From: Mucilaginibacter terrigena
GTDB taxonomy: Bacteria > Bacteroidota > Bacteroidia > Sphingobacteriales > Sphingobacteriaceae
Assembly: GCF_004168255.1 (NCBI RefSeq)
Contig: NZ_SEWG01000003.1
Coordinates: 496,001 to 560,000, forward strand
Reading direction: 5' to 3'
DNA: 64,000 nucleotides
The translations under genes were made by a program, and so were the position numbers. Below are positions 51,495 to 62,503 of the stretch, one piece after another (positions within the stretch are counted from its first letter, which is position 1; each line of letters begins with the position of its first letter). The notes below the pieces were generated by a model. That model ran no database searches. It was not told the origin of the DNA and saw only the letters and a program-made list of their open reading frames with translations.

Positions 51495-54400
51495 ATGCTT
51501 TTGTATATGAGATATTTATACGCCTTTGTTACCTGTATTGGCTTATTATTTTGGTTTGATGATTGCCGTGCGCAATACAGTTACCAGCAGATAGATAATA
51601 GCTCCGGATTGTCAAACAGCTGCATCAACACCATCTACCAGGACTCCGACAATATCATTTGGTTCGGCAGCTGGGACGGCTTGAATTTTTATGACGGAAA
51701 CAACATCCACGTATTTAATTACGAGAAAGCGAATAACAAAAACGCCATTGCCAGCAACGTTATTTACCAGATAACCGGCGATACCAAACGCAATATTTGG
51801 ATAGGCACGGTTGAGGGCCTGTCTAAATTCAATAAAAATACAGGCGATTTTACCAACTACTTTTATAACCCAAAAAAGGTAAACTCAAACGGGTACACCG
51901 TAGCCGTTGATAACAAGGGACAGGTTTACGCGGCCCGAAAAAACAGCTCCGAGCTATCCATATATAATACCCAAACCGATAGTTTTAATAAAGTAAACAT
52001 AAAAGGCCTGAGCAACTTTATGCTGCTGCGGATATTGTTTGACGAGCAGGGCACCCTTTGGCTGCTGAAGGATAATGGCATATTGGAAGCATTCCGGAAA
52101 ACGCCTGCGGGGTTCGAGTCGGTTAAGCAGTTTACCTCGGTGCAGGATGTTGATAATGTTTTTATGGCCAACCACCAGGTTTTTTATACCACTAAAGGTG
52201 GTGTGCTGGTTGGTATTACCAAACAATACGCAAAGCAAAGCCTGCTTAAGCTGCCGCATGAGGTACGCTCTATGAGTTTTTTTAAGCAGCACTACGTTTT
52301 TGCATGGGCATCAAAAGGTATTGGCGAATACGACGAGCAGTTTAAACCCGTAAGCACCATAGCCGCGCAGATCCCGGTTTTGCAGAACGTAAGGGTAACC
52401 TCGCTTATGAACGATGCCACCAACCTGCTATGGTTTGGCACGGATGGTAACGGCGTTTTAAAGGTGGCCAAAAAGGAGAACTACTTTGGTATTGTGCAAA
52501 AGCAGCCAAACGGGCAATCGTTCCATATCCCCGTTAGGGCATTTGCCGAGATCAATAACGAACTATGGATAGGTACCAAAGGCAACGGTATCATCACCAT
52601 AAAAAACTGGGGCAGCAAAAATGTGGCGTTCTCGGCCATTAAATCGTTTCACACCAACGTCGATCTGCTGGATAACTGTGTTTACACCATCGAAAAAGGA
52701 AACGATGGACTTGCCTACATCGGCTCGGATGCCGCGGGCGTTACCCTTTACGACCTGAAAACCAAATCTTTTACCAAATGGGAGGATATCAGCAACAGCG
52801 GCGCTTACCCGGCTTTTGGTTCGGTGCATTGTATCTTGTCGGATAAGGATGGCTCGGTTTGGCTAGGCTTGAACGAGAGCGGCCTGGTGCACCTAAAACT
52901 GGAACGGGATAACGGTAAAATCAGGATAAAATACCTTACCAAATATCAGTACACAGGCGATGCCAAAGGGCCGGGCAACGATGTAATATATACCCTTGCA
53001 CAGGGCAGCAGCGATAATTTATGGATAGGCTGCCGGTATGGCGGCTTAAGCGTTTTCAATAAAACAACGCAAAAGTTTCGCACCATGAAGGCCAGTAGCT
53101 ACGAGGGCAGCCTGTCAAACAACGATGTGCTGTCGATTTATGTAGATAACAGCAGGCGTTTATGGGTGGGCACCAGCTTTGGGCTAAACTGGGTAAACGA
53201 GGCCGAAGCGGTAAAAAATGCAAAACCCGTGTTTAAAAAACTGCATATAGATAATGGCCTGCCCAACAATACCATCCATGCCATAAGCGAGGATAACGCC
53301 AACAACATTTGGATAAGCACCAATAAGGGCCTGGCCAAGATCAACCCGACAAACCTTAAGATCGTGCATTATAAAGAATCGGACGGCTTACAGAGCGACG
53401 AGTTTAGCGATAATGCTGTTTGGAAGGATAAAGCAGGCATGCTGTTTTTTGGCGGTATTTACGGTTTCAACTACTTCTTCCCGCAAAATATCCACGTAAG
53501 TAACGAGCAGCCGCATTTGCTGATCTCGGACATGCAGTTTGCCGGAAAGAACGCGCCCGAGCGCGGGCTAAAGGTGCTAACCCGTAACGGCTCGGTTATT
53601 AACCAGCATTATGTGTTAAAGCCGCAGGATAACTATTTTGAGCTGAACCTGCAGCCTATTACCTATATAAATTCGCAAAAATGCCAGTACGCCTATTTTT
53701 TAGAAGGCTCGGATAAGGGCTGGCACTTTATAGGTAAGCACGAAAAGATCATTTACAACAACCTGCCGCCGGGGGATTATACGCTGAAGATAAAATGGTC
53801 GAACGGGGAGGGGGCGTGGACGCCGGGTGTTACCGCCTTTACCGTAACCGTTAAGCAATACTGGTGGTTGTCGCCTTTGGCGTTTTTGGGTTACGCGGTG
53901 GTTTTATTCGGGGCGGGTTTCCTGCTGGTACGCTACCGCAGAAACAAATTCCTGATGGAGCATGAGTTGAAAATGGAACACATGCTGCGCGAAAAGGACG
54001 AGAACCTGCACCAGGAGCAGATAAACTTTTTCACCAATATAGCGCACGAGTTGCAAACCCCGTTAACCCTCATCCTGGGTTCGCTGGAGCGTTACCTGTT
54101 TAAAACAAAACGCGTAGAAGAGCCAAAGCAGGGCAAGCAGTTCCTGTCCATAGTAAGCCAGGAGGCATCAAGGCTGCATTACCTGGTGCACCAGCTTTTG
54201 GAATTCAGGAAGGCGGAATCGGGGCAGCTGAAAAATCATTACAGCCATTTTAACGTGTCGGACCTGTTAAGCAACCGCGCAGGTTTATTCAATGTACTGG
54301 TGGATCAGAAGGAACTTGATTTCTCTATCCATATCGAACCAGGCATCAGTATGTGGATGGATAAGGATAAGCTGGAAAAGATCATTTTTAACCTGCTATC

Positions 54401-55622
54401 AAACGCATTTAAACATTGTGTAGCTAAGCAGTACATCATATTTTCGGTAGATGCCTGCAAAAACACCAACCGGTTAAAAATTGTGGTGGCCAACTCGGGC
54501 TGCAACCTCACCGAAGGCGAAGTGGGGCAGTTGTTTGATAAGTTTTTTGTGGTAGATGGCAGCCAGCAAAACAAGATCAGCTCGGGCATTGGGCTGGCCT
54601 TTACCCGCCAGATAGTGCAGCTATTAGGCGGCGAAATTACCGTAAGCTGCGAAAATAACTGGATAGCTTTTAAAGCATTGCTGCCGCTTAATTATATCCC
54701 GGCCAAACATGAGCAGATAACCGATAGTGATAAAACGGATAATGCATCGTACATATTCAATTCGTTAACTACCGGGCCAAAAACCATCGACCCAAGCACC
54801 GTGGCTGATAATAATAAAAAATCGCTGGTGAAAAGCTTTGAACAGGAGGAGAAGAAGGCCATCCTGATCGTAGATGATGAGCAGCTGATACGCTACCTGC
54901 TGAAAGATATTTTAGGAGATAGTTATATTATTTACGAGGCTTCAACTGGTAAGCAGGCGCTTGAAGTTATCCACCGCGCCATGCCCGACCTGATCATCAG
55001 CGATGTGATGATGCCGGATATGAACGGCCTGCAGCTTTGCGATCTGATCAAAAACACATCCGAAACCTGCCACATCCCTTTTGTGCTGCTATCTGCCCGT
55101 ACCACCACCGAGCATATGACAGAGGGCTACAGTTGCGGTGCCGATGCCTACATCCCCAAACCATTTCAAACCGAACATTTATTGGTGAGGGTGCAAAAAC
55201 TGCTGGAATACCGCGATAAGCTGCACCAGTTATTCAACTCGGGCAATGTGGCAGCCCATCTGGATAGCAGGGATGTATGTGATAGTGACAAAAAGTTCAT
55301 CGAAAAAGTAACCCGGGTTATTGAGGAAAATATTGATGAAGAACTCGACGGCGCATTCCTGGAGAATGCCTTAAACCTGAGCAAGATCCAACTGTACCGC
55401 AAAATAAAAACCCTGTCGGATATGACCCCGACCGAACTGATCCGCAACATCAGGATCCAAAAGGCATCGGCACTGCTCACCGGCTCTGACCTAACCGTAT
55501 CCGAGATCTTTTACCGCACGGGGTTCAATAACAAAACCTACTTTTTCAGGGAATTTAAAAAGATCTTTAACTGCTCGCCAAACGAGTACAGGGCAAAAAA
55601 CAGGCTGCCGAGTTTGAAATAA
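51495..55622 (+). CDS. Hybrid two-component system regulator (HTCS) of the PUL
   Basis: 1375 residues with the full HTCS order. Signal, reg_prop propellers (about 35-700; WFGSWDGLNFYDGNN, WIGTVEGLSKFN and similar), Y_Y_Y domain (about 725-790), membrane helix (LSPLAFLGYAVVLFGAGFLL), HisKA with His851 (TNIAHELQTPLTLI), HATPase_c, receiver with Asp1170 (LIISDVMMPDMNG) and a C-terminal AraC HTH (FLENALNLSKIQLYRKIKTL, YRTGFNNKTYFFREFKKIF). The ATPase G1 box reads VANSGCNL rather than DxGxG, a noticeable departure, though the G2 box SSGIGLAF is kept. It would sense a periplasmic oligosaccharide and activate the susC operon. Confidence 0.95.
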   Translation: MLLYMRYLYAFVTCIGLLFWFDDCRAQYSYQQIDNSSGLSNSCINTIYQDSDNIIWFGSWDGLNFYDGNNIHVFNYEKANNKNAIASNVIYQITGDTKRNIWIGTVEGLSKFNKNTGDFTNYFYNPKKVNSNGYTVAVDNKGQVYAARKNSSELSIYNTQTDSFNKVNIKGLSNFMLLRILFDEQGTLWLLKDNGILEAFRKTPAGFESVKQFTSVQDVDNVFMANHQVFYTTKGGVLVGITKQYAKQSLLKLPHEVRSMSFFKQHYVFAWASKGIGEYDEQFKPVSTIAAQIPVLQNVRVTSLMNDATNLLWFGTDGNGVLKVAKKENYFGIVQKQPNGQSFHIPVRAFAEINNELWIGTKGNGIITIKNWGSKNVAFSAIKSFHTNVDLLDNCVYTIEKGNDGLAYIGSDAAGVTLYDLKTKSFTKWEDISNSGAYPAFGSVHCILSDKDGSVWLGLNESGLVHLKLERDNGKIRIKYLTKYQYTGDAKGPGNDVIYTLAQGSSDNLWIGCRYGGLSVFNKTTQKFRTMKASSYEGSLSNNDVLSIYVDNSRRLWVGTSFGLNWVNEAEAVKNAKPVFKKLHIDNGLPNNTIHAISEDNANNIWISTNKGLAKINPTNLKIVHYKESDGLQSDEFSDNAVWKDKAGMLFFGGIYGFNYFFPQNIHVSNEQPHLLISDMQFAGKNAPERGLKVLTRNGSVINQHYVLKPQDNYFELNLQPITYINSQKCQYAYFLEGSDKGWHFIGKHEKIIYNNLPPGDYTLKIKWSNGEGAWTPGVTAFTVTVKQYWWLSPLAFLGYAVVLFGAGFLLVRYRRNKFLMEHELKMEHMLREKDENLHQEQINFFTNIAHELQTPLTLILGSLERYLFKTKRVEEPKQGKQFLSIVSQEASRLHYLVHQLLEFRKAESGQLKNHYSHFNVSDLLSNRAGLFNVLVDQKELDFSIHIEPGISMWMDKDKLEKIIFNLLSNAFKHCVAKQYIIFSVDACKNTNRLKIVVANSGCNLTEGEVGQLFDKFFVVDGSQQNKISSGIGLAFTRQIVQLLGGEITVSCENNWIAFKALLPLNYIPAKHEQITDSDKTDNASYIFNSLTTGPKTIDPSTVADNNKKSLVKSFEQEEKKAILIVDDEQLIRYLLKDILGDSYIIYEASTGKQALEVIHRAMPDLIISDVMMPDMNGLQLCDLIKNTSETCHIPFVLLSARTTTEHMTEGYSCGADAYIPKPFQTEHLLVRVQKLLEYRDKLHQLFNSGNVAAHLDSRDVCDSDKKFIEKVTRVIEENIDEELDGAFLENALNLSKIQLYRKIKTLSDMTPTELIRNIRIQKASALLTGSDLTVSEIFYRTGFNNKTYFFREFKKIFNCSPNEYRAKNRLPSLK

Positions 55623-55636
55623 ATCTATAGTTCTGC

Positions 55637-55816
55637 CTACTCTTTCACACCCCATACCCTAAAGATCCGCGGGAGGCTGATGATAGTTTGAGGGTCATTG
55701 GTGAATGCTTCCAGTTCGGCGAGAATATTGTTTACGGTTTGCGTATCTGCAAGGCCCTCGGTTACTATAGCATCCTTTACTAAAGTTGAAAACTTTGACC
55801 AGTTGGCGCGAAAAAA
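55637..55816 (-). pseudogene. C-terminal remnant of a class I methyltransferase-like gene
   Basis: On the minus strand a 60-codon open frame ends at TAG (55637-55639). It reads FFRANWSKFSTLVKDAIVTE and then GLADTQTVNNILAELEAFTN, DPQTIISLPRIFRVWGVKE. This resembles the tail of SAM-dependent methyltransferases with an SLPRIFQVWG-like end (from memory, moderate certainty). It has no start codon; its 5' side runs into a stop at 55817-55819, exactly where base composition turns AT-rich. The remainder of the gene is not found on the other side of the insert. Confidence 0.55.
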
Positions 55817-55882
55817 TTAACTGTTTTTAATATTATTATAATATTAAAAAGTATTATATTAGTATTGACTTACCTTATTGCA

Positions 55883-56440
55883 ATGTATAATCTATTAAAG
55901 CTCCCAATTATATTGGGTACCTTGCTCACGCTGATTTTGGGCTATGTGACCCTTGATGTCTTTAAATTGGAAAAGACTTTTGCTAACAGTTTAATGATTT
56001 GGGTGGTGTCTATAGGAATCATATTTTTATTAAATATTATTACAATAGCAAAGCAAAAAGTAAAAAAACATGGGGAAAAATTTGGCGCAAAGCTTTTTGA
56101 ATCAAAATCTGCTAAAAACGATATAAATTCTATTGAACCTGCCGAAGTTTTAGAAAAGCCAACCTTTTTTCAAGAAGCTTCTGAACTAACCTTTATTGGT
56201 GAATACGTAGCGACACTTTTTGCAGCTGTGTCATTACTTGCAGTGGCACTTATCTTTAATTCATCAGATAATAATAAGGCTATCGAAAAATGGGAAGTAA
56301 TTTTGATTGCTATTTTAACTTTTTTCTGGTTGAAATATTTAGAGTCCTCAGGGCGTGTAAAACTATGTACACCATACCTCCCGATACCACTTAAATGGTT
56401 AGTATTCCCTGGTGGAATCTGGATACTCTTTACATATTAA
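55883..56440 (+). CDS. Multi-pass membrane protein of unknown function
   Basis: 185 residues from the ATG at 55883 (MYNLLKLPIILGTLLTLILG); a TTG six codons upstream is the alternative. About four hydrophobic segments: two at the N terminus (about 5-25 and 35-55), then a Lys/Glu-rich cytoplasmic stretch (about 58-95), and two more (about 105-125 and 138-155). A short hydrophobic end (WLVFPGGIWILFTY) follows. No family recognised. First gene of the AT-rich insert. Confidence 0.7.
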   Translation: MYNLLKLPIILGTLLTLILGYVTLDVFKLEKTFANSLMIWVVSIGIIFLLNIITIAKQKVKKHGEKFGAKLFESKSAKNDINSIEPAEVLEKPTFFQEASELTFIGEYVATLFAAVSLLAVALIFNSSDNNKAIEKWEVILIAILTFFWLKYLESSGRVKLCTPYLPIPLKWLVFPGGIWILFTY

Positions 56441-56452
56441 AAGCTAATAAAA

Positions 56453-56542
56453 ATGAAAACCAGGCTCATTGTTTTTATTGTTGGGGTCTTTAGCATCGTT
56501 AATAGATGTGAAAATATTTCAATCAGATCGAAAGCATTTTAA
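56453..56542 (+). CDS. Tiny ORF, possible small exported peptide
   Basis: 29 codons, MKTRLIVFIVGVFSIVNRCE then NISIRSKAF. It starts 13 bp after the membrane-protein gene. The opening looks like a signal or small membrane peptide, but the length gives little statistical support. Confidence 0.25.
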   Translation: MKTRLIVFIVGVFSIVNRCENISIRSKAF

Positions 56543-56657
56543 GGATCTGTTTTTTTTTGTAGAAAAAGGCTTAACGTGTTTTGGGTTAAGTTGGAAACTT
56601 CGATCAACCGGAGTGTATTTAAGTTATTAAACTTAATTTTTATTAAACTTTATTTTC

Positions 56658-57524
56658 ATGACAACAAAAAAGGAAGCGCTTGAGAATCAGCAATTACAAA
56701 ATGAAATTCTTATAGGTAAAAAGCTTGGAATTGAAACTCATTGGATAAATGAGTCAGAAAAGCAAAAGTTAACTAATGAAATTTTAACGACAAAAAAGTT
56801 AAAACAAGAAACCCATTGGTTAAAAAGTGCTTTGCTGCCGGCTATTCAAATCCTAGCCGCACTACTATTAGCCATAGTTACTTATGTCATTGGCACGAAC
56901 ACTAATGTATTAAAATCTCAAAGCACAAAGATAGAAATCGACAAAGAAAGAAACGAAATCGAAACAATTTTAAACACAAATTCTAAAATCTTGCAGTCCA
57001 TGCAACTTACAAGAATAAATGACACGCTTTCTGCAACACGGAAAGATCTGGAAAACAAAAAGTCGAGTCTTTGGTCGCAAATAGGGCAACTAAACAATGT
57101 CAATCAACAACTGAATTTAAAAATTATTAGAAGCAAAGATGTTAATAAGATGCTTTTGGCCAACGCAGCAAAACTTCACACAGGTTTGTTTGATGCTCAA
57201 AAAAAATTAGATTCCACTAATGAGGCCATTACATTTAAAGAAGCGGAATACAATCTTTTATCGATTAAAAAGTCCGCTTGGGCAAATAACCCGAGTGTAA
57301 AGTATTTGATTAACGAAATTGCCAATAATCCCAAAATAGCTAAAAGAATAGTCGATAGCCTAGTTCAGTATAAACGGTTATCCGTGCCTAATTTACTTGG
57401 CGTATGTGATTTTGTTTTATTTTTCAGCACTGGTGATGAAAAAGTAATTGCTGACATCCAGAAGCAAATGATGGATAATTTTGATATTAGTAATAAAGGA
57501 TTTTTTTTTATTCTGATATTTTAA
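56658..57524 (+). CDS. Membrane-anchored coiled-coil protein (probably 5' part of a split ORF)
   Basis: 288 residues. The N terminus holds a 25-residue tandem repeat (NEILIGKKLGIETHW at 15-29 and NEILTTKKLKQETHW at 40-54). One membrane helix follows (about 57-79, LKSALLPAIQILAALLLAIV), then a long coiled coil (about 85-230). It ends in a T9 run as GFFFILIF. With one more T the frame would continue as FYSDILMNPAWSNDQR into the next gene, giving one 486-residue protein. No domain recognised; the design (helix, coiled coil, soluble tail) suggests a membrane-tethered sensor or scaffold. Confidence 0.7.
   Translation: MTTKKEALENQQLQNEILIGKKLGIETHWINESEKQKLTNEILTTKKLKQETHWLKSALLPAIQILAALLLAIVTYVIGTNTNVLKSQSTKIEIDKERNEIETILNTNSKILQSMQLTRINDTLSATRKDLENKKSSLWSQIGQLNNVNQQLNLKIIRSKDVNKMLLANAAKLHTGLFDAQKKLDSTNEAITFKEAEYNLLSIKKSAWANNPSVKYLINEIANNPKIAKRIVDSLVQYKRLSVPNLLGVCDFVLFFSTGDEKVIADIQKQMMDNFDISNKGFFFILIF
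57501..57509 (+). repeat. T9 homopolymer at the junction of two ORFs
   Basis: Nine T's. T9 leads to a stop at 57522-57524, whereas T10 would fuse the two reading frames. Candidate for a sequencing error, slippage, or phase-variable switch. Confidence 0.5.
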
Positions 57525-58117
57525 TGAATCCGGCCTGGTCAAATGATCAACGATACATTTTTTTACAAACTTATCTAAGAATCTTAAAGAAAGAGACAAA
57601 TAAGGAAAAGCAATTTTTTATATTAAATGAAATTGCTCAATTCCAAGCTTTTTATCAGGTGAGCTTAGCAAAAACCGATTTCAATAATTTCATCTTTTAC
57701 ATTCAAAAATGTAAGGTGCTTTCCGAAAACGATTTGTATGAATCAGACAGAAGCATTGAATTGAACAAAAGACTAGTAAATTGTATTGCTATAGTTTGTC
57801 CGCAAATATTTGTGGCCAATTACTTAAATAATTTAGAAAAAGCTAGGCCTATGGTTAATGGAATACTAGATTCTACTAATATTAAAAAAATTAATATTAA
57901 TTATCTTTATCCATTTGAGTTTCTTTCTGATAAAACTAAAGAAAGAATAGATACAATATTTAATACCATAGATTTCAATGAAAAATTACAAGGAAAAAAA
58001 CTTTATGATGAGATTAAAAATCATAAGCGAGTAATAAATTATTGGCTTAGAGTATATAACGGAATGCCTTTTAATACAGAGGAAGTGAAACGCAAAGTGC
58101 TGAATAATGAAATGTAG
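57524..58117 (+). CDS. Unknown AT-rich protein, probably the 3' part of the preceding ORF
   Basis: 197 residues from an ATG that overlaps the previous stop by one base (TAATG). Largely helical and rich in Lys, Asn, Ile and Phe (MNPAWSNDQRYIFLQTYLRI, KEKQFFILNEIAQFQAFYQV, YNGMPFNTEEVKRKVLNNEM). No signal or membrane helix and no known motif. It may be translated separately by coupling, or be the C-terminal domain of a 486-residue protein (see T9 run). Last gene of the insert. Confidence 0.6.
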   Translation: MNPAWSNDQRYIFLQTYLRILKKETNKEKQFFILNEIAQFQAFYQVSLAKTDFNNFIFYIQKCKVLSENDLYESDRSIELNKRLVNCIAIVCPQIFVANYLNNLEKARPMVNGILDSTNIKKININYLYPFEFLSDKTKERIDTIFNTIDFNEKLQGKKLYDEIKNHKRVINYWLRVYNGMPFNTEEVKRKVLNNEM

Positions 58118-58175
58118 TTAAAGCCCAACGACACTACCGCATTTGTCCCCACTTGTCCCTAAATCCCCCCAACTA

Positions 58176-58214
58176 AGCCCGCTTCTATCAGCGGCTTGGA
58201 GGGAAAGCGGGGCT
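58176..58214. repeat. Inverted repeat at the right edge of the AT-rich insert
   Basis: AGCCCGCTT and AAGCGGGGCT pair with one bulge around a 20-base centre. It lies just past the last AT-rich gene, where composition returns to normal. It may be a terminator or the scar of an element. Confidence 0.4.
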
Positions 58215-58404
58215 ACAGTAAAATAGTACTTCTGCCATTGCTTTTCTAAAACACACCCGCACACAGCAGGTAACAGTTTACCCGCCTGTAAAAATTATTA
58301 TTGCTCTTAGTTGTAAACCAATTTTATCTTTATAGTTATACAGGGTCGGGTCGCGTGCTTATATGTATCCGCGTTGCCGTTGCTGTAAACTAAATTACTA
58401 TACT

Positions 58405-60171
58405 ATGCATCCTACAATAAAAAGCAGGTATCCGGTAAAAGCGCTTGTTGTTTTTGTGGCCATGGCCATGTTTGCGCCGGGTGCCTTTGCGCAGTTGCCG
58501 GTGTTTAACAAAAACCAGCAGGTACGCACCGAGGCTACCACCCGCAGGCTAATAACCCCGGTAAGGTTAATGTGGCAAAAAGGTAACGTGGTAAATGCCG
58601 CCGGCCTGCTTAAAAAGGGTAACGGGCAGGCAGAGATCGCCGATAAAACCTTGTGTACCCTCACCAATAAAGATACCTCGCACGCGGCCATCCTGCTCGA
58701 TTTTGGGAAGGAAATGCATGGCGGCCTGCAGTTGGTAACGGGTATGTATAAGGGCGGCAAGCCGGTAAAGGTAAGGCTGCGCTTCGGCGAGTCGGCGGCG
58801 GAGGCCATGTCTGATATTGATACCCTAAAAAATGCCACTAACGACCATGCCATGCGCGATTACGTGCTGCATTTGCCCTGGCTGGGCAAGTTGGAGGCGG
58901 GTAACACCGGGTTCCGTTTTGTGCGGATTGATCTGCTGGACGATAACACCGAACTGAAATTAAAAGAACTGAGCGCCATTATGGTTTACCGGGATATACC
59001 GTACCTGGGTTCGTTCCACAGCAGCGATACTTTGCTCAATAAGATCTGGATGACGGGCGCGTACACCGTGCACCTGAACATACAGGACCACCTGTGGGAT
59101 GGCATCAAACGCGACAGGCTGGTGTGGATAGGGGATATGCATCCCGAAACATCGACCATTGCCGCCGTTTTTGGCTATAACGATGTGGTACCCAAAAGCC
59201 TTGACCTTGCCCGCGATATTACCCCCCTGCCGGGATATATGAACGGCATCGTATCGTACTCGATGTGGTGGGTGCTTATCCAGCGCGACTGGTATATGCA
59301 CACCGGCGATATCAAATATCTGCGGCAGCAAAAAACCTACCTTGCCAAACTGCTTGATCATTACATCAAAAATATCGACGCCGCCAACAGCGAACAATTT
59401 AACGATGGCTGGCGCTTTTTAGACTGGCCATCCAGCAAGGACCCCAAGGCTATACACGCAGGCCTGCAAGCCATGCTGGTGATGACGCTTGACGCCGGGG
59501 CCGACCTTAGCAAGGCACTGAACGATGCCGCTACGGCCAAACGCTGCACCGATGCCATTGCCCGTTTAAAAAAGAACGTGCCGGATGCGGGCCAATCAAA
59601 ACAAGCCGCCGCTTTGCTGGCCTTATCGGGCCTGGTGCCCGCGCGGCAGGCCAACCAGGTTATTTCGGCAAACGGGGTGCATAACTACTCTACCTTTTTT
59701 GGCTACTACATGCTGCTGGCCAAGGCAAAGGCCGGCGATTACGAGGGCGGTATAAACGCTATCCGCAATTACTGGGGGCAAATGTTACAGTTAGGCGCCA
59801 CCACCTTTTGGGAGGATTTTAATGTAGACTGGATTCCTAACGCAGCCCGTATTGATGAACTGGTGCCCGCCGGTAAAACCGACCTGCACGCCAAATACGG
59901 CGATTATAGCTACAAGGGTTACCGCAACAGCCTGGCGCATGGCTGGGCATCGGGCCCAACGCCCTGGTTAACCGAGTTTGTGCTTGGGGTAAAGGTAATG
60001 GCGCCGGGATGCAGGGTTATAAAAATTACGCCCCACCTTGGCGATCTGAGTTTTGCCGAAGGCACGTTCCCTACGCCGTATGGCATGGTTAAAATAAAAC
60101 ATACCAGGCTGGCCGGCGGCAAAATAAAAACCATAGTGAGCGGCCCAAAGCAGGTAAAAATTATCCGGTAG
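58405..60171 (+). CDS. Exported alpha-L-rhamnosidase-like glycosidase (GH78-like)
   Basis: 588 residues from the ATG at 58405, chosen for the export signal (MHPTIKSRYPVKALVVFVAM, AMFAPGAFAQ). A beta-sandwich (about 55-190, ILLDFGKEMHGGLQLVTGMY) precedes an alpha6/alpha6 barrel. The GH78-type acidic motif appears as DHLWDGIKRDRLVWIGDMHP followed by Glu, with Lys-Arg-Asp in place of the common ERDxxxWxGD order. FWEDFNVDW and SLAHGWASGPTPWLTEFVLG with a C-terminal beta domain complete it. It would release L-rhamnose; the rhamnose regulator and RhaT follow directly, which supports this. Confidence 0.82.
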   Translation: MHPTIKSRYPVKALVVFVAMAMFAPGAFAQLPVFNKNQQVRTEATTRRLITPVRLMWQKGNVVNAAGLLKKGNGQAEIADKTLCTLTNKDTSHAAILLDFGKEMHGGLQLVTGMYKGGKPVKVRLRFGESAAEAMSDIDTLKNATNDHAMRDYVLHLPWLGKLEAGNTGFRFVRIDLLDDNTELKLKELSAIMVYRDIPYLGSFHSSDTLLNKIWMTGAYTVHLNIQDHLWDGIKRDRLVWIGDMHPETSTIAAVFGYNDVVPKSLDLARDITPLPGYMNGIVSYSMWWVLIQRDWYMHTGDIKYLRQQKTYLAKLLDHYIKNIDAANSEQFNDGWRFLDWPSSKDPKAIHAGLQAMLVMTLDAGADLSKALNDAATAKRCTDAIARLKKNVPDAGQSKQAAALLALSGLVPARQANQVISANGVHNYSTFFGYYMLLAKAKAGDYEGGINAIRNYWGQMLQLGATTFWEDFNVDWIPNAARIDELVPAGKTDLHAKYGDYSYKGYRNSLAHGWASGPTPWLTEFVLGVKVMAPGCRVIKITPHLGDLSFAEGTFPTPYGMVKIKHTRLAGGKIKTIVSGPKQVKIIR

Positions 60172-60252
60172 GTTAATTAATCGATTTAGCAGTAACTTAA
60201 GTTGATAATTAGGGTTGTAATGTATAATTTTACGCCCCATGTTTTATAGATG

Positions 60253-60288
60253 TATTTTTGCGGCCGGGTTAGGTTGGATGTTACCAAC
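60253..60288 (+). promoter_or_regulatory. Promoter element and palindrome before the GntR gene
   Basis: TATTTTTG (60253-60260) matches the -7 consensus TAnnTTTG exactly; 12 bp on, GTTGG-ATGTTA-CCAAC (60273-60288) is a perfect 5-bp inverted repeat ending 12 bp before the ATG. Probable promoter plus an autoregulatory operator. Confidence 0.45.
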
Positions 60289-60300
60289 TTTAGTTAATCA

Positions 60301-61326
60301 ATGAAGAACTTTCTTAAAATATTAACTATAGACGAGTATTCGCTGACGCCCTATTACCGGCAGCTATGCAATTCTATTTTACAGGGTATCGATGAAAAGC
60401 TCATCAGCGAAAATGATACCCTGCCTTCTATCAACGATCTGAGCATAGCGCTGGATATATCGCGGAACATTGTTACAAAGGCTTATAGCACTTTAAAGAA
60501 AAGCGGGGTGGTAAACTCTGTGCCCGGCAAAGGTTATTTTATTGCCAACGTAAACCTGGACAGGCCGGTGAAGGTGCTGCTGCTTTTTAATAAGCTAAGC
60601 AGCCACAAAAAAACCATATACGATGCCTTTGCCGAAGAATTGGGCGATAAGGCCTCTATCGATTTTTACATCTACAACAGCAGTTTTAATTTTTTTAAAA
60701 AGATCCTGTCAGAGAAACAGGACAAATACGATAAGGTGGTGATCATCCCGCATTTTATTGATAAACGCGACAACGCCTGGGAGGTGATAAACCAGATCCC
60801 GAAAGATAAGCTGATATTACTGGGTAAATTGGTAGAAGGGGTCGACGGCGATTTTGGAGCGGTTTACGAAGATTTTGAGAACGATATTTTTAACGCCCTT
60901 GCGCAGCTGATAACCAAAATAAAACGCTACAATTCCTGCACCATCGTTTTCCCGAAAAACAGCTATTTCCCTACGGACATCCTGATCGGTTTCCTCAATT
61001 TTTGTAAGCAATACAACTGCGATTACGACATCGTGTCCGATCTGTCTAAAGAAAAAATACTAAAAGACAGCCTTTACATTACCCTAACCGAAGACGACCT
61101 TATTGCGCTGATTAACCTGCTGCTGCATCAAAATTTAAAGCTGAACGAGGATGTGGGAATAATCTCCTATAACGAAACACCTTTAAAGAAATTTATCCTT
61201 AACGGCATCACAACCATATCAACCGATTTTGAATTTATGGGTAAGCATGCCGCACAGTTGGTGTTAAATAATAGTCGCGCCCGTATTAAAGTGCCTTTTA
61301 ACAGCATTATCAGGGATTCGATATAA
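60301..61326 (+). CDS. GntR-family regulator of rhamnose use
   Basis: 341 residues. N-terminal GntR winged helix (about 12-82; TPYYRQLCNSILQGIDEKLI, LPSINDLSIALDISRNIVTK, VPGKGYFIA) joined to a LacI/periplasmic-binding-protein-like effector domain. This is a combination typical of Bacteroidetes sugar regulators and unlike the usual FadR or HutC effector domains. Located directly in front of rhaT and the aldolase, it very likely responds to L-rhamnose or a catabolite. Confidence 0.9.
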   Translation: MKNFLKILTIDEYSLTPYYRQLCNSILQGIDEKLISENDTLPSINDLSIALDISRNIVTKAYSTLKKSGVVNSVPGKGYFIANVNLDRPVKVLLLFNKLSSHKKTIYDAFAEELGDKASIDFYIYNSSFNFFKKILSEKQDKYDKVVIIPHFIDKRDNAWEVINQIPKDKLILLGKLVEGVDGDFGAVYEDFENDIFNALAQLITKIKRYNSCTIVFPKNSYFPTDILIGFLNFCKQYNCDYDIVSDLSKEKILKDSLYITLTEDDLIALINLLLHQNLKLNEDVGIISYNETPLKKFILNGITTISTDFEFMGKHAAQLVLNNSRARIKVPFNSIIRDSI

Positions 61327-61423
61327 TTTTAACTGTGCTGTATAAAAGCATACAGAGAGTAACAGTTTATTCAACCTAAAACTATATAATTGTTTTTGTT
61401 ATAAACCAAGTACCCTTATAGTT

Positions 61424-62503
61424 ATGCAGATATTTTTTGGAATTTTGTTCCACTTTATAGGTGGTTTTGCCTCCGGCAGTTTTTATATTCCGTATAAAAA
61501 AGTAAAAGGCTGGGCCTGGGAAAGCTTCTGGATCGTGGGTGGCCTGTTTTCATGGCTTATCGTCCCGCCGGTTGCAGCCTGGCTTACAATCCCCGGTTTT
61601 ATCGACATTATCAAAGCTACCAATGGTAATATATTACTGCTCACCTACTTTTTTGGATTGCTATGGGGCATTGGCGGTTTAACCTACGGCTTAGGGGTAC
61701 GTTATTTAGGGGTATCATTAGGCAGTACCATTATATTGGGGCTTTGCGCTGTATTTGGTTCTATTATTCCATCGGTATATTATAATTTTTACCCGCAGGA
61801 TGGTAAAGATACCTTTAGTATGCTGCTGCACAGCCATTGGGGCCAGATGGTGCTGTTAGGCATAGTGATATGTGTTATCGGCATCATCATCTGCGGCAAA
61901 GCGGGCACCCTAAAGGAGCGCGACCTGGCCAAAAACCGCCAGGCCGAAGAAGAAAATAAAGACTATCGCTTTGGGTTAGGTATATTCGTGGCAATTATTT
62001 CAGGGGTACTCAGCGCCTGTTTTAATTTCGGGATTGAGGCCGGTAAAACCATGGCCGAAACCGCCAACGCCGCCTGGCAGGCTACCCATGCCGGGCAAGG
62101 GAATTTCCTGTTCCAGAACAATGTAACCTACATAGTAATACTTTGGGGCGGGCTTACCACCAATTTTGTTTGGTGCATGATACTGAACGCCCGCAATAAA
62201 ACCTTTGGCGATTACACTAACGCGAAAAAACCACTATTAAAAAACTACCTGTTTTGCGCCCTTGCGGGTACAACATGGTTCCTGCAATTCTTTTTTTACG
62301 GTATGGGCGAAAGTAAGATGGGCAACGGTGCCAGCTCGTGGATCCTGCATATGGCGTTCATTATCCTGATAGCCAATACCTGGGGCCTGTTCCTTAAAGA
62401 GTGGAAAGGTGTTAGTAAAAAGGCGGTTTACACCGTAATAGCCGGCATAATAACCATTATCATATCAGTTTTGGTTGTCGGATATGGCAACTCCATTAAA
62501 TAA
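61424..62503 (+). CDS. rhaT: L-rhamnose/proton symporter RhaT
   Basis: 359 residues with about ten membrane helices. RhaT-type features: FHFIGGFASGSFYIPYKKVK, GLLWGIGGLTYGLGVRYLGV, SGVLSACFNFGIEAGKTMAE, and a C-terminal TM region ending VVGYGNSIK. Imports L-rhamnose across the inner membrane with protons. It lies 97 bp after the GntR gene and 24 bp before the aldolase gene. Confidence 0.93.
   Translation: MQIFFGILFHFIGGFASGSFYIPYKKVKGWAWESFWIVGGLFSWLIVPPVAAWLTIPGFIDIIKATNGNILLLTYFFGLLWGIGGLTYGLGVRYLGVSLGSTIILGLCAVFGSIIPSVYYNFYPQDGKDTFSMLLHSHWGQMVLLGIVICVIGIIICGKAGTLKERDLAKNRQAEEENKDYRFGLGIFVAIISGVLSACFNFGIEAGKTMAETANAAWQATHAGQGNFLFQNNVTYIVILWGGLTTNFVWCMILNARNKTFGDYTNAKKPLLKNYLFCALAGTTWFLQFFFYGMGESKMGNGASSWILHMAFIILIANTWGLFLKEWKGVSKKAVYTVIAGIITIIISVLVVGYGNSIK

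Follow-up and report, generated by a model that had tools for sequence, protein, structure and literature searches.

A 2.3-kb AT-rich islet with three genes, found in contig NZ_SEWG01000003.1, probably represents two or three clustered orphan genes that are foreign and species specific, most likely either the remnant of a phage- or plasmid-like element or its cargo, located at a junction of chromosomal blocks. The window, here and below, is the whole 64,000-nucleotide stretch of this contig that was analyzed. The islet lies beside a remnant of a methyltransferase gene, its composition breaks sharply from that of its surroundings, the order of the flanking blocks differs from that in the closest comparable genome, and its genes show no detectable relatives.

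Composition, coding status, and borders of the islet

The GC content of the window is 0.46 to 0.49 up to ~55.7 kb, falls to 0.26 to 0.34 between 55.75 and 58.1 kb, and goes back up beyond 58.2 kb. This sharp step of ~15 points sets the islet (~27 to 33% GC) apart from the DNA around it (~47%). The third-position GC (GC3) is 0.29 in ORF1, 0.31 in ORF2, and 0.25 in ORF3, versus 0.507 (standard deviation, 0.084) in 44 long ORFs of the window, which is the kind of departure from host genes used as a criterion for ORFan or atypical gene clusters. The shift in codon use described in the initial annotation is clear for ORF1 and ORF2, which have low codon-usage likelihoods, but not for ORF3, whose mildly low score is only about one standard deviation off the window mean. 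At the local composition, the probability that a stop-free run arises by chance is 9e-8 for 185 codons, 1e-11 for 288 codons, and 3e-8 for 197 codons, and the GC content of ORF1 to ORF3 differs among codon positions, as in coding DNA. Because of these improbable lengths and the codon-position variation, all three are coding or recently coding sequences.

The left junction (positions 55784 to 55882), defined by an alignment of homologues and by an inverted repeat, consists of ~34 bases with no detected homology followed by AT-only DNA. The inverted repeat, at 55824 to 55850, is perfect, 13 bp long, and likewise AT-only. The right limit, initially set at 58117, is not sharp: a GC-richer spacer and a palindromic repeat (58175 to 58256, plus strand) precede the rhamnosidase gene. 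This dispersed intergenic repeat is shared by several congeneric species and has a single copy in the present genome. With up to 3 mismatches allowed, its 26-base core is found in 8 of 150 congeneric genomes and the reversed control pattern in none; related copies are present in further congeneric genomes besides these 8. The repeat, with the core CAGCGGCTTGGAGGGAAAGCGGGGCT, occurs in G004, G020, G042, G043, G048, G049, G057, and others (loci L049 to L060), and in G048 the repeat forms a near-perfect back-to-back inverted pair. Compared by eye, other copies read CCTAAACCCGATTGTACGGAAAGCCCGC and the window copy AACTAAGCCCGC, and ~15 bases appear to be missing close to the start of the latter. 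The repeat may represent a REP- or MITE-like element; a literature search on it in Mucilaginibacter returned nothing relevant.

No flanking direct repeats, target duplication, or att-like repeat were found around the islet, and there is no tRNA target near it, the nearest tRNA in the window being at 18.9 kb. Rfam shows no family near its cut-off inside the islet. Its ORFs include no integrase, transposase, or phage hallmark gene, with nothing returned by Pfam or PHROGs, which bears out the earlier observation that a transposase is missing.

The methyltransferase remnant and the rearranged flanks

Directly to the left of the islet, positions 55637 to 55783 of the minus strand contain the last 48 codons and the stop codon of a class I methyltransferase gene whose 5' part is missing. 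The truncated tail recognized initially is real: its 48 residues (encoded at 55640 to 55783) are 75% identical to residues 232 to 279 of a 279-residue, UbiE-like protein of G065, the nearest relative with left-flank synteny. The full-length G065 protein matches the Pfam families Methyltransf_31 and Ubie_methyltran. Because only residues 232 to 279 are left, without the SAM-binding GxGxG motif and the Rossmann domain, and the intact homologues carry this domain, the remnant is a pseudogene stub. The methyltransferase has a patchy distribution, with four intact close homologues among the 150 congeneric genomes. When these four are aligned with the stub, the "RANWSKFSTL" stretch before 55783 proves not to be methyltransferase sequence; the next 34 bases, which run to 55817 in an open frame, match none of the four. 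Thus, the drop in GC content that was noted at 55817 is confirmed but its exact coincidence with the methyltransferase break is not, as the homology stops at 55783.

The left flank consists of a plus-strand gene (51495 to 55622) for a hybrid two-component sensor/regulator, in which Pfam identifies Reg_prop, Y_Y_Y, HisKA, HATPase, receiver, and AraC-type HTH domains and which is 95% identical to its G065 orthologue at the amino acid level. The DNA of G065 and of the window is 83 to 86% identical from 46.7 kb to 55779. In G065, this gene is followed by the intact methyltransferase gene (on the other strand, with a four-base overlap) and then by a DUF2238 gene, a GNAT gene, and a carboxylase gene. 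When the whole present genome is searched at the DNA level with the G065 region, the carboxylase and GNAT genes turn up as a block on contig C4, and no DUF2238 is found. There, the gene that comes after GNAT encodes an M42-like peptidase, whose locus in G065 is at 2.40 Mb. The right flank of the islet is formed by a gene for a GH78-type alpha-L-rhamnosidase, identified by Pfam (58363 to 60171, plus strand), followed by genes for a GntR-type regulator (60301) and RhaT (61424). In G065, the two flanks are ~470 kb apart and in opposite orientation, with the regulator and RhaT at 4.19 Mb and the left flank at 0.13 Mb. The rhamnosidase-regulator-RhaT order at 58363 to 62503 is itself unlike that in G065, where a large gene (L045:10826-14089) separates the regulator from RhaT; the rhamnose block has been rearranged within the genus.

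Because both sides are rearranged relative to G065, an exchange is favored over a clean insertion, as the initial annotation had proposed, and the gene order marks the islet site as a junction of rearranged chromosomal blocks. If an element had simply been inserted into the methyltransferase gene, with the 5' half further off, this would agree with the composition step near the methyltransferase break. Such a clean insertion is nevertheless very improbable: no 5' part turns up when the whole genome is searched at the DNA level, a protein search finds only the stub and a 26%-identical paralogue, the flanks belong to blocks that are far apart in G065, the block downstream of the methyltransferase there is on contig C4 here, and no target duplication is seen. 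A simple reciprocal inversion was also considered and rejected. The other junction of the missing block corresponds to 2.40 Mb in G065 rather than to 4.19 Mb, and a single inversion therefore cannot give this block order. An assembly artefact or a contaminant joined at the islet, to which the foreign composition and the lack of relatives could point, is scarcely credible, given that the contig around the islet is 660 kb long, that the completeness and contamination of its assembly are estimated at 99.99% and 0.29%, and that both flanks are typical of the genus.

For the preferred reading, a foreign gene cluster at a block junction, an intact methyltransferase-DUF2238 pair would have come after the two-component gene in an ancestor common to this lineage and G065. 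The present lineage would then have lost the 5' part of the methyltransferase gene together with DUF2238, and the downstream block would have been relocated, leaving the rhamnose utilization block beyond the islet. Both the acquisition from a mobile element and this order of events are what we infer from the comparison. The earlier claim that an AT-rich insert had cut the methyltransferase gene holds for the truncation beside the islet; the insert may or may not have been its cause, and truncation and acquisition may have been separate events at one fragile site.

Predicted products of the islet and searches for their relatives

ORF1 (55883 to 56440, plus strand) encodes an orphan membrane protein of 185 residues with at least three strongly hydrophobic segments; the ATG at 55883 is its more likely start. 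ORF2 (56658 to 57524, plus strand) encodes an orphan of 288 residues with a single transmembrane (TM) segment at residues ~54 to 85, followed, in a low-confidence model, by a long helix or coiled coil up to residue ~186 and a helical tail. The 197-residue product of ORF3 (57524 to 58117, plus strand), also an orphan with a low-confidence model, is predicted to be all-helical and has no hydrophobic segment. The AlphaFold models, built without relatives, are helical, with a mean pLDDT of 58 for ORF2 and 39 for ORF3, and a Foldseek search with the ORF2 model gives nothing below an E value of 4.5. The initial description of a multi-pass membrane protein, a TM-coiled-coil protein, and a helical tail holds as to these features, with the start of ORF1 moved to 55883 and ORF2 and ORF3 possibly a single gene. 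Between ORF1 and ORF2, there is a 29-codon ORF (56453 to 56542; MKTRLIVFIVGVFSIVNRCENISIRSKAF) with a hydrophobic start, which may be due to chance or encode a truncated small membrane peptide, and a T9 run at 56550 to 56558.

The stop codon of ORF2 and the ATG of ORF3 overlap by one base (TAATG). The frame of ORF3 is open back to 57497, and the 27 bases in which both frames are open contain another T9 run (57501 to 57509, plus strand). A one-base shift at this run would fuse ORF2 and ORF3, which may accordingly be one gene; the arrangement is explained equally well by translational coupling of two genes and by a single gene that has a frameshift, or undergoes slippage, at T9. The run in itself is not special, because ~1.2 runs of at least nine A or T residues are expected in a stretch of such composition and two are observed. 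The products of ORF1 and ORF2/ORF3 most likely form a membrane-associated assembly. In it, ORF1 would be integral in the membrane, and ORF2 would be attached to it by a single helix and have a coiled-coil stalk. ORF3 would be either the helical C-terminal domain of ORF2, if a shift at T9 unites the frames, or a partner linked to ORF2 by translational coupling. It is very unlikely that these products represent a new kind of two-part membrane system, in which slippage or phase variation at T9 sets the expression of ORF2 and ORF3 and gives anchored and extended forms of one protein.

Searches of Pfam, NCBIfam, PADLOC, and PHROGs give no match for the three proteins beyond coiled-coil or TM noise, and no relatives are found among phages and plasmids or in IMG/VR. 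Pattern scans of the species genomes with ORF2 and ORF3 return nothing, and neither do protein searches of 400, 395, 400, and 340 genomes (at the family, phylum, order, and class levels, in partly overlapping sets). At the DNA level, the 150 congeneric genomes contain nothing recognizable of the islet genes. The genome searches begin with a loose first look, and the scans of collections extend no further than close relatives; distant homologues may therefore be missed. At this sensitivity, the three genes are orphans. Some matches to the concatenated proteins at E values of ~1e-3 were inspected and attributed to chance: the DNA polymerase III alpha subunit, an ABC permease, and SusD proteins, as well as a kelch protein, a TonB/MORN protein, and an epimerase. 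These results agree with the initial statement that the genes match nothing known, and the lack of significant homologues in sequence collections is a further feature of ORFan or atypical gene clusters. Relatives with the same arrangement, which would have spoken against a foreign-looking, species-specific segment, were looked for, and none of the searched genomes has the genes. The co-occurrence of the gene set in other genomes, also suggested initially, is not seen anywhere searched.

Origin of the islet and comparison with known systems

Several observations weigh against an origin from a mobile element. The islet lacks an integrase, a transposase, att-like direct repeats, and phage genes; AT-richness by itself can also develop in genes that have long been resident and evolve fast; and sparse sampling of close relatives could exaggerate the isolation of these genes. 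The lack of mobility genes and flanking direct repeats would suit native host genes, fast evolving or decaying, that became AT-rich in place without horizontal acquisition, and the T9 run and the split between ORF2 and ORF3 could be signs of early decay. This explanation is doubtful in view of the sharp step of GC content and the absence of anything recognizable from the 150 congeneric genomes at the DNA level and from the protein-level genome searches.

Somewhat less likely still is an uncharacterized membrane-anchored accessory or defense-like islet, in which a complex of ORF1 and ORF2/ORF3 would sense or block an invader. Several co-oriented genes, two of them with TM segments, a foreign composition, and the occurrence in one genome only would be in line with it. 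However, none of the three proteins has a PADLOC hit, no known defense or effector domain is detectable with Pfam or NCBIfam, the flanks examined include no defense genes, and there is no guilt by association because the gene set recurs nowhere; the defense-like cassette of the initial annotation thus finds no backing. The islet looks like a fairly ordinary small ORFan cluster of foreign appearance, with defense as one possible function. It provides a clean example of orphan genes at a chromosome rearrangement junction, beside a lost resident gene and with a relative in which the locus used for comparison is intact, and its three unplaced proteins are candidates for characterization, with no special claim attached. 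In the congener G045, a 199-residue ORF (L125:16446-17045) with 26% GC, a lipoprotein-like start, and neighbors of normal GC content lies ~6 kb from a GH78 gene and appears to be another AT-rich islet.

The minus-strand remnant is the C terminus of the same UbiE-like class I methyltransferase that is encoded next to DUF2238 in G065. A similar pair is found in G057, at a different locus, where the DUF2238-type gene is assigned by sequence resemblance. Unlike in the G065 pair, only 48 codons are left here, and the catalytic domain and the DUF2238 neighbor are missing. In bacteria, slippage is known to occur at T9 runs (PMC1088944), and, as in the transcriptional slippage at A9/T9 runs described by Baranov et al. 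(2005), the run at the ORF2/ORF3 boundary is located where a one-base shift would join two open frames. Unlike in those cases, there is no homologue with the fused form, and the TAATG stop-start overlap is an equally good reading, making slippage at this site only possible.

In a published survey by Cortez, Forterre, and Gribaldo (2009; PMC2718499), ORFan clusters of atypical composition are linked for the most part to integrative elements. Its clusters likewise consist of compositionally atypical, grouped genes without homologues, but the islet, unlike those cases, has no plasmid or virus hallmark gene, so its source element cannot be named. The main criterion of that survey is a larger window of genes; it also considered that clusters as small as two to six genes may be what is left of integrative elements.
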